NCBI RefSeq assembly: GCF_003555505.1
Contig: NZ_CP032152.1
Span: 2,341,001 to 2,405,000 of the forward strand
DNA length: 64,000 bases
Source of the DNA: Thermosynechococcus sichuanensis E542
GTDB taxonomy: Bacteria > Cyanobacteriota > Cyanobacteriia > Thermosynechococcales > Thermosynechococcaceae
Reading direction: 5' to 3'
The notes below the pieces were generated by a model. That model worked only from the letters and a program-made list of their open reading frames with translations, had not been told where the DNA came from and made no database searches. How positions within the stretch are numbered: the first letter of the stretch is position 1; every line of letters starts with the position of its first letter. This document shows positions 53,674-58,514 of the stretch, piece after piece. The position numbers and the translations under genes are program-made.

Positions 53674-54134
53674 AGTCTTTCTGGTGTCTATACTGTCCCG
53701 CCACTCAACTCTCCCTTCTCTTACGCTCCCCAACTCGCTTGCCGTCAATCCGTTGACCTCGCGCTGACTATCCATACTCACACGCCAACCGCGAGTCAAC
53801 CCCCCTCTTATCGATATACACCTCCGTTTTCTCTAACTGGTCATCGGGATGAGCCGCAACATCCGCTGCTAAGGCTGCCCAATCCAGTTTCCAAGGACAG
53901 CGCGGGACAACCGTAGGAGCAAGGTTTTCTCGCTTCAGCCAGCGATGGATGGTGGCACAACTGACTTGAAAGAGTTGAGTGGCCTCACTGATTTTGCCCC
54001 CTTGCCAACCCGCTCTCGTCAGTCCAAGCTGTAGCTCATATTCTTTGACAACGTTTATGGCTCTTTAAGTATAGCCTATCTCTCTTAAAAATATATCACT
54101 CCTTTTTGAAATAGCTAATTTGAAATAGCTATAG
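53674..54134 (-). mobile_element. Decayed IS630-family element (5' half)
   Basis: On the minus strand, a terminus resembling TATAGCTATTTCAAAAAGGAGTGATA (54134 inward, with a small TAGCTATTTCAAA duplication) is followed by an IS630-type transposase N-terminus. The frame 54058-53768 has the helix-turn-helix TQLFQVSCATIHRWLKREN and then VYIDKRGVDSRLACEYG before a TAG. Recognisable IS630 sequence (SARGQRIDGKRVGERKRR) continues past it to the edge of the UPF0182 stop. The start codon is lost and the C-terminal catalytic part is missing. Confidence 0.85.
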
Positions 54135-54356
54135 CTTAAGGCAACCAACAACTATTAAGATTTTATGAGTTCTGTTAATTTATCATCAATTGCTGAAGAA
54201 ACTACACTTAGAGCTTTTCGATCTAACTTAAAATAAGAATTGGTTATAGAGTGACTACTTCTAACATCTTGGTTTGAGGGAAGTAGGTCGGCAACAACAT
54301 TACTCAAACGATAGTGCCGAATACCGTCAGCTTTTTGTACAAGAAGGAGATTATTT
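54135..54356 (+). promoter_or_regulatory. AT-rich leader of the Roadblock-GTPase cassette
   Basis: These 222 AT-rich bases lie between the IS terminus and the first cassette gene. No gene is supported. The cassette promoter should be here; I cannot assign -35/-10 boxes with confidence. A good AAGGAG site sits at 54344 before the ATG. Confidence 0.4.
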
Positions 54357-54752
54357 ATGGCAATTAATGCAGCGAAACTCCAAGCAACATTACAAAAATT
54401 TGTTGCTGATGTTAGTAACGTGCAAGGGGCTGCGCTCGTTTCTCCTGATGGCTTAACCTTAGCAGCGGCACTGCCAGGGGAAATGGATGATGAACGAGTA
54501 TCAGCAATGTCAGCAGCCATGCTCTCTTTGGGTGAACGGATTGGCCGAGAACTGAGTCGGGGTCAAATTGAGCGGATCTTGGTCGAAGGAACAAATGGCT
54601 ATGGCATTCTCACCAGTTGTACAGACGAAGCAGTATTACTGGTATTGGCGGATGCGGCAGCCAAACAGGGGATTATTAACCTTGAAATCAAGAATATCAT
54701 TGGTGAACTGCAACCGCAGTTAACAGCAGGGTTACAATCGGTGGGTGTTTAA
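54357..54752 (+). CDS. Roadblock/LC7 domain protein (MglB-like)
   Basis: The 131-residue protein is a single Roadblock/LC7 domain: VADVSNVQGAALVSPDGLTL, LSLGERIGREL, VEGTNGYGILTSC. In bacteria these proteins are GTPase-activating or nucleotide-exchange partners of MglA-type small GTPases, and a GTPase gene follows after a 36-base gap. It opens the four-gene cassette and has a strong ribosome site. The regulatory role is family knowledge; the specific partner is inferred from adjacency. Confidence 0.9.
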   Translation: MAINAAKLQATLQKFVADVSNVQGAALVSPDGLTLAAALPGEMDDERVSAMSAAMLSLGERIGRELSRGQIERILVEGTNGYGILTSCTDEAVLLVLADAAAKQGIINLEIKNIIGELQPQLTAGLQSVGV

Positions 54753-54788
54753 TTGTCCCTGTCCTTGCAAAAGGAGAAGAGTCGCACC

Positions 54789-55355
54789 ATGGAAATCATG
54801 CGGATTGTTATTACTGGACCGGTGGGGGCAGGAAAGTCTACATTTATTCGCACCATCAGTGAAATTGAACCTGTGGACACAGATCGTAAAGCCACGGATG
54901 ACATCGCCAGTTGGAAAGCAAAAACAACTGTGGCAATGGATTTTGGGCGACTGCAATTTGGTCCCAATGTGGCCTTGCACCTCTACGGTACACCAGGGCA
55001 GGAGCGGTTTGACTTTATGTGGGACATCTTGATTCGTAAGGCTCATGCCTTCATTTTGTTAGTCAGCTCTCACCGTCCCCAAGACTTTCGAGCGGCACGG
55101 CGAATCCTAGCCTTCATGCGTCACCGAGTCAAGATTCCCATGCTGGTTGGTCTGAGTCATGCGGATAATCCAGAAGCTTGGCCGGCAGAGGATATTGCGA
55201 TCGCCCTAGGGTATCGTAGTCACCACAATCGGCCGCCAATGGTTCAGGTCAACGCCCTTGATCAACGCTCTGTGGCAGCAGCGATGGTGAAACTCATTGA
55301 AACCTATGCAAAGTATCAAGCGGATCAACTGAACTGGGATGCTGTCAAGCACTAG
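54789..55355 (+). CDS. MglA/Arf-like small GTPase (COG2229)
   Basis: The 188-residue protein has P-loop TGPVGAGKST near residue 10, a switch II of LYGTPGQERFDFMW (a variant of DxxG found in MglA and COG2229 GTPases), and a weak G4 in VGLSHADNP where NKxD is usual. AAGGAG precedes the ATG at 54789; an in-frame TTG at 54753 is unlikely. With the Roadblock protein it forms a likely GTPase switch. Confidence 0.9.
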   Translation: MEIMRIVITGPVGAGKSTFIRTISEIEPVDTDRKATDDIASWKAKTTVAMDFGRLQFGPNVALHLYGTPGQERFDFMWDILIRKAHAFILLVSSHRPQDFRAARRILAFMRHRVKIPMLVGLSHADNPEAWPAEDIAIALGYRSHHNRPPMVQVNALDQRSVAAAMVKLIETYAKYQADQLNWDAVKH

Positions 55356-55410
55356 TTTTTAGAGTTTGGAGGGGGAGGTAGCTCGAACTTTATCACAAGG
55401 GGGAAAACAA

Positions 55411-56271
55411 ATGAAAATCACGGGCTATTTATCTGAGTTTTCCTTAGGGGAAATCTTCCGCTTCCTAGAACAGGGGCAAAAAACAGGGTGTCTCTCGATT
55501 AAGCCATTGGAAAGTGAAACCCCACTGATGCGCTCTTGCCAAAACTGCTATATTTTCTTTCGTTTCGGCCAAATTGTGGCGGCGACTCGTGAATTAGATC
55601 ACCAAGGACTACAGCAGTTAATCGAGGAGCGTGGCTTTATTCACATCGCCACTATTCAGCGACTGCTCAAACTATATCCTCTCAACCAGCCCTTGGGTCT
55701 GCTGTTGAAAAGCCAAGGGGCTTTAGATAGTCAACAGTTGCAGTTGCTATTTAAGCAGCAGGTTCTCACGCCGATCCCAGAGTTGTTTAGTCTTACTGAA
55801 GGATGGTTCAAGTTTGATGCCAATCACCCGCTGCCGTTGGAAGAAATGACAGGGTTGAGCGCACCGCCGCGAGATGTGGCCTTAGTGGGTCTGCGGCTAC
55901 TGCGAGATTGGACGCCCTTGATGGACAAATTGCCCTTGCCTGATTCCACGATGATTAGCTTGAGTGAGGGACAGCCTCCCTGCCACCTTAGCTCTGTGGA
56001 ATGGCAGGTCTGGGAGTATGTTGACAAAACCGTCACCTTAGAGGGCATTTCCCAAGCCCTCAATTTACCGATTCTAGAGGTACAGAAAATTTGCTTTCGG
56101 TTGATGGTGGCTGGTTTAGTGGAGGAGATCATCAATGTTTCCATGGAACCACCCCCCGATTCGCCACCAGCGACACCTGCATCTTCAGAAGAGATCAGCA
56201 AATCCGTGAGTGACTCATTTCTCAGAGGGGTGTTAGCATTCCTGAAAATTAAAGCCGAGCCAAGGGTATGA
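55411..56271 (+). CDS. DUF4388/PATAN domain protein
   Basis: The 286-residue protein begins ITGYLSEFSLGEIFRFLEQGQKTGCLSI and has CYIFFRFGQIVAATRE, the PATAN/DUF4388 signature used as an output or adaptor module in cyanobacterial signalling. The second half looks like a winged helix (LEGISQALNLPILEVQKICFRLMVAGLVEEI). The C-terminus has a Pro/Ser linker. It probably relays the GTPase state. ATG at 55411 chosen for its AAGGGGGA site; it is 55 bases after the GTPase stop. Confidence 0.85.
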   Translation: MKITGYLSEFSLGEIFRFLEQGQKTGCLSIKPLESETPLMRSCQNCYIFFRFGQIVAATRELDHQGLQQLIEERGFIHIATIQRLLKLYPLNQPLGLLLKSQGALDSQQLQLLFKQQVLTPIPELFSLTEGWFKFDANHPLPLEEMTGLSAPPRDVALVGLRLLRDWTPLMDKLPLPDSTMISLSEGQPPCHLSSVEWQVWEYVDKTVTLEGISQALNLPILEVQKICFRLMVAGLVEEIINVSMEPPPDSPPATPASSEEISKSVSDSFLRGVLAFLKIKAEPRV

Positions 56272-56287
56272 AAGGAGGGTATAGACC

Positions 56288-56764
56288 ATGACGAAAGTGA
56301 CACCTATCGAATGGACAGAAGACTTGAAAACTAGCCATGCTGGTCTTGACGCTCAGCATAAAGAATTGTTAACCATGGTCAATGAGCTAGGGGAGGCCAT
56401 CAACCAAGGGCAGGGAGCTGCAACCATGAAACGCCTCTTTTCCTATGCTTTAGCCTATGCTGATTGGCACTTTCGCTATGAAGAGGAGTTAGCTGCCAAG
56501 TATCAATGTCCAATTGCTGAGCGTAACTTGCGCGAGCACACAGCCTTTCGGCAGCTCATTGCCAAGTTTGAGCAGAAATATAAGGAGGCGCGGGCGGCAG
56601 AACTGGCTGGCAACAGTAACTACGAAATACTAGAGCAACTGGCGGTTACATTTCACCAGCAATTGAATGACTGGATCATGCAGCATATTGCCATCGTGGA
56701 CAAGCAGATTGGTGAGTACGTGACGGCTGTGGAAGCAGCCAAAGCCGAGATAGCGGTCTCTTGA
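56288..56764 (+). CDS. Bacteriohemerythrin with one substituted iron ligand
   Basis: The 158-residue protein has the hemerythrin four-helix pattern: His24 (LDAQHKEL), His61 and Glu65 (HFRYEE), His84 (LREHTAF), and His133 with Asp138 (HIAIVD). The position four residues before His84, normally the first His of HxxxH, is Asn80 (codon AAC), so one of the seven diiron ligands is changed. Hemerythrins bind O2 or sense oxygen/NO. It lies 16 bases after the DUF4388 gene and has a GGAGG site. Confidence 0.9.
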   Translation: MTKVTPIEWTEDLKTSHAGLDAQHKELLTMVNELGEAINQGQGAATMKRLFSYALAYADWHFRYEEELAAKYQCPIAERNLREHTAFRQLIAKFEQKYKEARAAELAGNSNYEILEQLAVTFHQQLNDWIMQHIAIVDKQIGEYVTAVEAAKAEIAVS

Positions 56765-56938: not shown

Positions 56939-57278
56939 TATAGCTATTTCGAAAGGGAGTGAGATACTTTCAAGCAGCTCGACACATGAGTAGAGAGTCA
57001 CGGCGAGGAAACGGTGGTGTATATCGATGAGACGGGGTTTGACTCTCGGGTAGATAATGCACTGATTCATCCGAAAGGGGTGATTCAGGAAGCGATCAAA
57101 GCAGCGGGTCACGAGGTATTATTTTTAGCGAAATACTCTCCTGATTTGCATCGGATTGAGCAGGACTTTAGTGCGCTGAAGTGAGCGCGGATGTATGCAG
57201 GGTCAAACAGTTCGATTGATGAGGTGATTCGCAATTATTGTGCTGGATAATATCTCACTCTTTATTGGAATAGCTATA
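56939..57278 (+). mobile_element. Internally deleted IS630-family element
   Basis: A terminus TATAGCTATTTCGAAAGG(GAGTGAGATA) at 56939-56966 matches the reverse complement of 57251-57278 at most of 28 positions. Between them, 56990-57250 reads as the C-terminal IS630 transposase: VVYIDETGFDSR, then directly DNALIHPKGVI, and FLAKYSPDLHRIEQDFSALK, a TGA, and a tail SIDEVIRNYC. The middle of the DDE domain is deleted, making a non-autonomous 340-bp element. Confidence 0.85.
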
Positions 57279-57288
57279 TCTCTCTTTG

Positions 57289-57318
57289 TAGTATGCCACT
57301 CTCTTTCGAAAGGGCTAT
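57289..57318. repeat. Extra IS630-type terminus fragment
   Basis: Read on the minus strand, TATAGCCCTTTCGAAAGAGAGTGGCATAC resembles the same terminus a third time, directly outside the right element. It suggests a nested or repeated insertion at this spot. Confidence 0.6.
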
Positions 57319-57357
57319 AAATACTTCCCCGAATGAGTCTTGTTAAAATTGCTACAT

Positions 57358-58215
57358 TTAACAACAATAGGTGACAACCAGCAGCTCACTAATCTTACCG
57401 CGTTTATGGCGATTGGAGTTGATGACACGGCTGGCCTTGAGTTCAATGCAGCGCCAAGATCGATACAGTTGTAGCATCGGTTCAACCCAAGCATTGCTGA
57501 GCATGACGTAGCATCCCCGTTGAGCTAACTCACCCACAACGTTGGCTAGGGCAATCTGTTCTGCCTCGCCAAAGGGCTGATCGGTGTAACTGGTGAAACT
57601 GGCTGTTTTAGAAAGAGGATAGTAAGGCGGATCAAAGTAGATAAAATCCCCCGCCGTTGCCCAAGTTAAGACCTCTTGAAAATCCGCCACACTTAATGTC
57701 ACGTTTTGCAGAGCAATGCTCGCTTGGCGCAGAGTCTCTGGCTCAAAGATCTGGGGATTGCGATAACGACCCATGGGAACGTTGAACTGCCCGTCACGAT
57801 TAACACGATAGAGGCCGTTAAAACAGGTTTTGTTCAGATAAATCAAGCGAGCCGCTCGCGTCAGGGGATCTAGTTGCTGCTGATCTAAGCTACGAATGTG
57901 GTAGTAAAAGGTTTCACTGTGCTGTTGGCGATATTCCGTGAGTTGTTTAATTAAGTCCTCCACGCGATCGCGCACAATTTGGTAGCAATTCATCAGTTCA
58001 GGGTTGCGATCGCTCAACCGCGCCTGCTGAAACTGAAACTGCCCTCGCTGAGCTTGACCAAAGAGATACCAATAGAGCGCTGCACTGCCACAAAATGGCT
58101 CAGCATAACAGCGACATTGAGGGGGTAAATAGGGAGCCATTTGGCTCAACAATTGGGACTTGCCCCCCGCCCACTTCAGAAATGGCTTCGGGCTGAGGAT
58201 CGCTGCTGTCGCCAC
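57358..58215 (-). CDS. dam: DNA adenine methylase, Dam/DpnM family (GATC type)
   Basis: The protein has FLKWAGGKSQLL (motif I) at the N-terminus, EPFCGSAALYWY, and DPPYYPLSKTASFTSY (catalytic DPPY) in the middle. This is the alpha-class N6-adenine methylase pattern of Dam and M.DpnII. GATC is the expected target and forms the core of the HIP1 repeat GCGATCGC. I chose the GTG at 58215 (285 residues) because it overlaps the yggT stop and precedes the conserved start; the frame is open to 58296. No restriction gene is adjacent. Confidence 0.9.
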   Translation of the reverse strand: MATAAILSPKPFLKWAGGKSQLLSQMAPYLPPQCRCYAEPFCGSAALYWYLFGQAQRGQFQFQQARLSDRNPELMNCYQIVRDRVEDLIKQLTEYRQQHSETFYYHIRSLDQQQLDPLTRAARLIYLNKTCFNGLYRVNRDGQFNVPMGRYRNPQIFEPETLRQASIALQNVTLSVADFQEVLTWATAGDFIYFDPPYYPLSKTASFTSYTDQPFGEAEQIALANVVGELAQRGCYVMLSNAWVEPMLQLYRSWRCIELKASRVINSNRHKRGKISELLVVTYCC

Positions 58216-58514
58216 TAGGCCGGTGGAAACAAGATGAACAACAGTCCCTGCTGCCCCACAAGCAATTCCCGGAGGAGGGTGACAATGCCCACCCAAATAA
58301 TGGGACTAATATCCACTCCCCCAAGGGGCGGCACGACGCGGCGAGTTGGTGCCAGCACAGGCTCTGAGAGCCAGTAAATCACTTTCAATGGCCCTTGGGT
58401 GAGGTTGATCTGGGGGTACCAGGTAAGGACAATCCGCACCAGAAAGATGAGGGTAAAAATGGCAAGGATAATGCCTAGCACCCAATTGATGACAACAACA
58501 GCAGACATTGGCAT
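58215..58514 (-). CDS. YggT family membrane protein
   Basis: The 99-residue protein has two membrane helices (VINWVLGIILAIFTLIFLVR and the C-terminal WVGIVTLLRELLVG) and a central VLAPTRRVVPPLGGVDISPI, the YggT signature. In cyanobacteria and plastids (YLMG) the family is linked to membrane or nucleoid organisation. Its stop overlaps the dam start by one base. Confidence 0.92.
   Translation of the reverse strand: MPMSAVVVINWVLGIILAIFTLIFLVRIVLTWYPQINLTQGPLKVIYWLSEPVLAPTRRVVPPLGGVDISPIIWVGIVTLLRELLVGQQGLLFILFPPA

Follow-up and report, generated by a model that had tools for sequence, protein, structure and literature searches.

A candidate sensor-gated small-GTPase module, carrying a hemerythrin, in Thermosynechococcus and other cyanobacteria

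Several described systems resemble parts of the locus considered here. The MglA/MglB switch is known from Myxococcus and Thermus, and the adjacency of MglA/MglB and PATAN genes has already been published (Wuichet and Sogaard-Andersen 2014, PMC4316618). As in those neighborhoods, a Roadblock gene lies here by the gene for an MglA-family GTPase, a PATAN gene is found close by, and the G3 motif of the GTPase is without its Asp. The present locus differs in that it also holds sensor genes, which encode a protoglobin, a V4R-like protein, or a hemerythrin, in that the G4 motif is (S/T)HxD, and, as far as the sequence can be read, apparently in lacking a match to the intrinsic Arg finger. In Methylacidiphilum, a heme globin is tied to a Roadblock/LC7 domain in the protein HGbRL, and an MglA-like GTPase is present in the genome (PMC4476040). 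However, this globin is fused and belongs to a different family from protoglobin, and neither PATAN nor hemerythrin is described for HGbRL.

Hemerythrin serves as a redox or O2 input in the sensors DcrH, Bhr-DGC, and Bhr-HD-GYP (PMC9388753), whereas the hemerythrin of the present operon stands alone, unfused, with Asn in place of one His ligand. The actinobacterial conservons (CvnA-D) are also small operons that combine a Roadblock protein, an MglA-family GTPase, and an input protein, but the cyanobacterial module has neither the histidine kinase CvnA nor CvnC (DUF742). Finally, TRAPP and the Asgard Roadblock-TRAPPC3-Rab sets (PMC10933270) bring together a V4R/TRAPPC3 fold, predicted below for a protein termed C6, and a Roadblock with a small GTPase. 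In contrast to the Asgard sets, the module is cyanobacterial and operon-encoded and uses an MglA-type GTPase; the MK-D1 genes generally lie outside shared operons.

An earlier note on this DNA knew of no pathway that couples a hemerythrin to an MglA/MglB-type switch, and we likewise found none in the open PMC literature. Nor did the open literature yield a paper linking a sensor to the MglA/MglB-PATAN module or a demonstration that gas acts directly on a small-GTPase switch; the globin-Roadblock fusion of Methylacidiphilum comes closest.

The operon and its core proteins

The window is a 64,000-nucleotide stretch of the Thermosynechococcus sichuanensis E542 genome, which is a single contig of 2.65 Mb. 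Four genes on the plus strand encode an MglB-like Roadblock/LC7 protein of 131 amino acids (54357-54752; PF03259, E 5e-18), an MglA-family small GTPase of 188 amino acids (54789-55355; Pfam Ras, Roc, Arf, and MMR_HSR1 above cut-off), a DUF4388/PATAN adaptor of 286 amino acids (55411-56271; PF14332, E 5e-27), and a hemerythrin-like protein of 158 amino acids (56288-56764; PF01814 and TIGR02481 above cut-off). From 5' to 3' the intergenic gaps measure 36, 55, and 16 bp, and a purine-rich, Shine-Dalgarno-like stretch can be seen by eye 5' of each of the four starts. The arrangement that the earlier note had described, four reading frames on one strand with short gaps, is borne out by the open reading frames and by Pfam and NCBIfam. 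Two other Thermosynechococcus genomes from the same clade (L063 and L064) and a paralogous copy (L030) have these genes in the identical order, which thus does not reflect chance. Comparison with L063 gives dN/dS values of 0.05 for the Roadblock protein and the GTPase and 0.12 for the PATAN protein and the hemerythrin, which places all four genes under purifying selection. The cassette is genuine and conserved on both counts and, judged from sequence, the four genes form a conserved operon in heat-loving cyanobacteria. Promoter and terminator scans returned matches at chance level only.

The Roadblock protein scores 65 bits for Robl_LC7 against a cut-off of 23, with CvnB5 3leq and 7f8m among its solved relatives. 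For the GTPase, the ATG at 54789 is a more likely start than the upstream TTG at 54753, which gives 200 amino acids. Its top-scoring Pfam model is ATP_bind_1, and its profile matches the solved MglA structures 3t12 and 6hjh. The P-loop reads GPVGAGKST, G3 reads GTPGQ, in which the Asp of DxxG is absent, and G4 reads SHAD rather than [NT]KxD. An alignment of 18 homologs shows no variation in the P-loop, in GTPGQ, or in the residues that flank them, and most of 33 aligned homologs have (S/T)HxD at G4. The [NT]KxD form has been reported for MglA Groups 1, 4, and 5, of which Group 5, as published with the standard G4, takes in cyanobacteria. In Group 1 the G2 Thr has an intrinsic Arg finger beside it; in the corresponding region here, KTTVAMDFG, no Arg directly precedes the Thr in the sequence alignment. 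As for the earlier label of an MglA/Arf-like GTPase, G3 without Asp and the coupling to Roadblock (50 of 52 loci, see below) agree with the MglA family, whereas the usual G4 Lys is absent.

The PATAN protein scores 94.8 bits for DUF4388 against a cut-off of 25. Its AF2 model (pLDDT 84.6) has a helical segment at residues 195-240 and a low-confidence tail, and found no confident fold match in the PDB; the C-terminal region gave weak winged-helix-like matches only. Residues ~93-117 form a helical insertion, PLGLLLKSQGALDSQQLQLLFKQQ, that resembles half of a c-di-GMP-binding MshEN motif, although the profile match to MshE 5htl reaches an E value of 0.33 only.

Conservation and partner proteins in cyanobacteria

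A survey of 194 cyanobacterial genomes, which counted clear GTPases and protoglobins over cut-off, found the GTPase in 19, protoglobin in 21, and both in 18 (Fisher p = 2e-21, with kinship between species ignored). A scan of the contigs of named genomes, limited to the 80 closest relatives among the matches, which are cyanobacterial (one MAG is labelled otherwise), gave at least 79 loci. Fifty-two of the listed 79 are well covered, with at least 3.5 kb on each side. Roadblock is found at 50 of these 52 loci and PATAN at 48; protoglobin occurs at 30 and C6 at 32, and one or both at 41, while 10 or 11 modules, about one fifth, have no recognized sensor on the module strand. Hemerythrin is present at just 3 of the 52, in addition to the Thermosynechococcus copies. 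Conservation shows that the core of the module consists of Roadblock, the MglA-family GTPase, and PATAN, and the usual partner of this core, by gene neighborhood, is protoglobin and/or C6 rather than hemerythrin. Of the four-family adjacency that the earlier note put forward for checking in other genomes, the Roadblock and PATAN parts stand, whereas hemerythrin is not a conserved partner.

Despite changes in gene order, C6 (41 of 45) and protoglobin (33 of 39) adjoin Roadblock, either directly or via each other, and sensor-Roadblock pairs are repeated in L119, L149, and L157. Because these genes stay beside Roadblock through rearrangements, the sensor is read as acting on the Roadblock protein.

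The partner protoglobin, from a family of heme gas sensors, is well recognized (PF11563, E 1e-19 to 1e-24; 70-85 bits against a cut-off of 25), and the presumed proximal His and the B10 Tyr, both assigned by motif, are retained in the alignment. That of G089 (L034 6998-7582) is 99% identical to the protein matching the solved globin Tlr1989 (8h17; E 2e-121), and a hemerythrin of BP-1 is listed as tlr1993 (PMC4919030). These two correspondences make tlr1989-tlr1993 the most likely extent of the operon in BP-1, with the intermediate numbers inferred. A literature search for the tags tlr1989-tlr1993 returned just the hemerythrin listing in PMC4919030, and the partner genes of Tlr1989 seem undescribed; the module offers a candidate partner set for both proteins. 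In some genomes a second protoglobin (L074-L078) is encoded apart from the GTPase module, and its surroundings include neither a Roadblock nor a GTPase gene. Hydrogenase maturation (hyp) genes, recognized by eye, are found near the module in two genomes (L049 1101-5891 and L170 14308-15162).

C6 is a conserved, unannotated protein of ~160 amino acids, encoded at about half of the at least 79 cyanobacterial loci and mostly adjoining Roadblock; one example is L040 9185-9673, on the minus strand. Its fold was predicted, since sequence searches of Pfam and the PDB gave no match. The AF2 model (pLDDT 76) matches TRAPPC3/Bet3, the MopR/PoxR aromatic-sensor domains, and a V4R protein (Foldseek E 1e-5, TM up to 0.69), with Nostoc H-NOX lower in the list. 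By predicted fold, C6 is a V4R-superfamily protein and a candidate small-molecule binder, and it would be an example from bacteria of a TRAPPC3-fold protein whose gene accompanies those for a Roadblock and a GTPase. Both C6 and protoglobin are absent from the window copy.

The window genome contains three old paralogous copies of the GTPase, 100, 87, and 78% identical to that of the window, and each has Roadblock before it and PATAN after it. The window copy and L030 carry hemerythrin without protoglobin, and L031 carries protoglobin without hemerythrin. In a concatenated tree the three copies fall into three clades (support 1.0), each common to other genomes of the genus, and the order of the clades is not settled by the tree. 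The window clade, which is old in that other genomes of the genus have it, includes Thermosynechococcus M46_R2017_013 and M98_K2018_005 (support 1.0), both with two hemerythrins in tandem. Second hemerythrins directly after the first lie at L063 2825-3247 and L064 6203-6625 (minus strand); the window has the first only. A five-gene operon of protoglobin, Roadblock, GTPase, PATAN, and hemerythrin makes up the single copies of G179, G213, and G089, copy a of G214, and the copy of G085, which belongs to another family. Three Thermosynechococcus genomes are without any module, which is accordingly dispensable.

The hemerythrin and its ligand set

The window hemerythrin scores 45.7 bits for PF01814 (cut-off 25.3) and 87.1 for TIGR02481 (cut-off 51.75), and falls just below the cut-off for NF033749 (79.8 against 84). 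Its nearest solved relative is the sensor domain of DcrH. The canonical ligands of the family are H-HxxxE-HxxxH-HxxxxD (PMC9388753); the window protein reads H24-H61xxxE65-N80xxxH84-H133xxxxD138 and retains six of the seven diiron ligands, with Asn80 aligning with the DcrH residue that is the first His of HxxxH. The same NxxxH replaces HxxxH in every cassette hemerythrin examined. Stand-alone relatives (G369 L158; L160-L167) carry this Asn too, so the change is a trait of the clade, and a cassette signature was rejected as its explanation. The genome's third hemerythrin, a stand-alone gene (L032 8133-8564), retains the canonical HxxxH.

Characterized bacterial hemerythrin sensors with seven ligands mostly undergo fast autoxidation and redox switching (PMC9388753). 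Given the replacement of one of the seven ligands, the window protein is more likely to be a redox or altered metal sensor than an O2 carrier, and a canonical O2 carrier was rejected as the default assignment. The earlier description of a diiron O2-binding protein survives as far as the hemerythrin family is concerned; with Asn at one canonical position, O2 binding is not secured.

Within the module, hemerythrin has been added behind PATAN in particular lineages. It lies 3' of PATAN at all hemerythrin-bearing named loci (including L095, L100, and L111), at a distance of -17 to 43 bp in Thermosynechococcus and G085, and the reading frames overlap in L033 and L066. Among 386 genomes, six of the seven cassette-like hemerythrins (at least 179 bits) are found inside the module, whereas the weaker hemerythrins all lie outside it. 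In the window copy, hemerythrin is the sole sensor candidate.

A proposed mechanism and its alternatives

The explanation that we favor, at slightly better than even likelihood, is that this genome has three paralogous copies of a sensor-gated small-GTPase module, of which the cassette is one. A gas or redox sensor encoded beside the core would alter the effect of the Roadblock protein on GTP hydrolysis or exchange. This sensor would be a protoglobin and/or a V4R-fold protein in most copies and the hemerythrin in the window copy, where Asn in place of His would probably make it an autoxidising redox/O2 switch or an altered metal site and not a reversible O2 carrier. The GTP-bound GTPase would then engage the PATAN protein; no other effector candidate recurs in the module. 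PATAN in turn may act on some machinery of the cell, for which the type IV pilus motor is the most plausible candidate. In short, the sensors are inferred to bind Roadblock and to set the GTPase according to their ligand or redox state, with PATAN as the effector and pili as the target. The oxygen- or redox-gated GTPase control that the earlier note suggested is thus the preferred reading, and it gains strength from the protoglobin and/or V4R-fold protein beside Roadblock in most relatives of the module. Operons of this kind look like a candidate means by which gas or redox state could control a GTPase in cyanobacteria, and a possible route to aerotaxis or hypoxia behavior in cells that themselves produce oxygen.

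Motility appears the likeliest output, if at somewhat less than even odds, on three observations. In G091 (L170 1084-12192), a full chemotaxis-type operon (PATAN-REC, CheY, CheW, a GAF-rich MCP, and a CheA-type hybrid kinase) lies directly 3' of the module on the same strand. Binding of the pilus motor PilB1 by PATAN-REC proteins of cyanobacteria is cited in PMC9090330, and MglA stimulates pili in Myxococcus (PMC11580455). This lead draws on one locus and on knowledge of the PATAN family. A broader and more doubtful proposal is a modular class of cyanobacterial gas/redox receptors. Their soluble sensors (protoglobin, V4R-fold protein, and His-to-Asn hemerythrin) would be interchangeable and would dock on Roadblock, govern the nucleotide state of the MglA-type GTPase, and steer pilus motility, as a bacterial counterpart of eukaryotic Roadblock/TRAPP-type GTPase control.

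The hemerythrin might instead be a passenger, concerned with oxygen, iron, or peroxide handling, that shares the operon promoter without acting on the GTPase. Its rarity in the module and the existence of solitary close homologs with the same ligand change are what this reading would predict, but it has to contend with the constant position after PATAN in Thermosynechococcus, G085, and Leptolyngbya/Nodosilinea, with the overlapping frames, with the concentration of cassette-like hemerythrins inside the module, and with the other sensor-type proteins that the module otherwise holds; we regard it as unlikely, though worth keeping in mind. About as unlikely, or slightly more so, is a conservon-like signaling complex whose output is transcription or some process other than motility, and in which the C-terminal helical segment of PATAN may bind another partner. 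The resemblance of the Roadblock protein to CvnB5, the NarL-type regulator and HisKA_3 kinase that adjoin several Nostocales copies, and the winged-helix-like matches of PATAN point in this direction. However, the kinase/regulator pair is not conserved beyond some copies, and one copy abuts the chemotaxis-type operon. Outright identity with a conservon was rejected, as neither the window cassette nor the conserved set includes a CvnA or CvnC gene.

It is very improbable that the window copy is a decaying, functionless duplicate. IS630-like remnants, whose transposase nature was judged by eye, bracket the cassette in inverted orientation. One (53789-54136, minus strand; HTH part and terminal repeat) has an 87% inverted repeat with 57005-57049 and further copies in the genome; the other (56939-57319, plus strand; DDE part and terminal repeats) has 11 matches in its own genome and inverted repeats. 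These remnants and the absence of protoglobin and of the second hemerythrin seen in L063 and L064 would suit decay, but the frames are open and under constraint, and the clade is old and common to other genomes of the genus. A recent IS-borne duplication was rejected because of the old clade shared with M46 and M98 and because the coding block itself is free of the remnants. At the DNA level, homology to L063 extends from 54354 to 56749, the coding block only, so the window copy has its own upstream region. A gene for a D12-class adenine DNA methyltransferase (57358-58296, minus strand; PF02086) adjoins the IS remnant.
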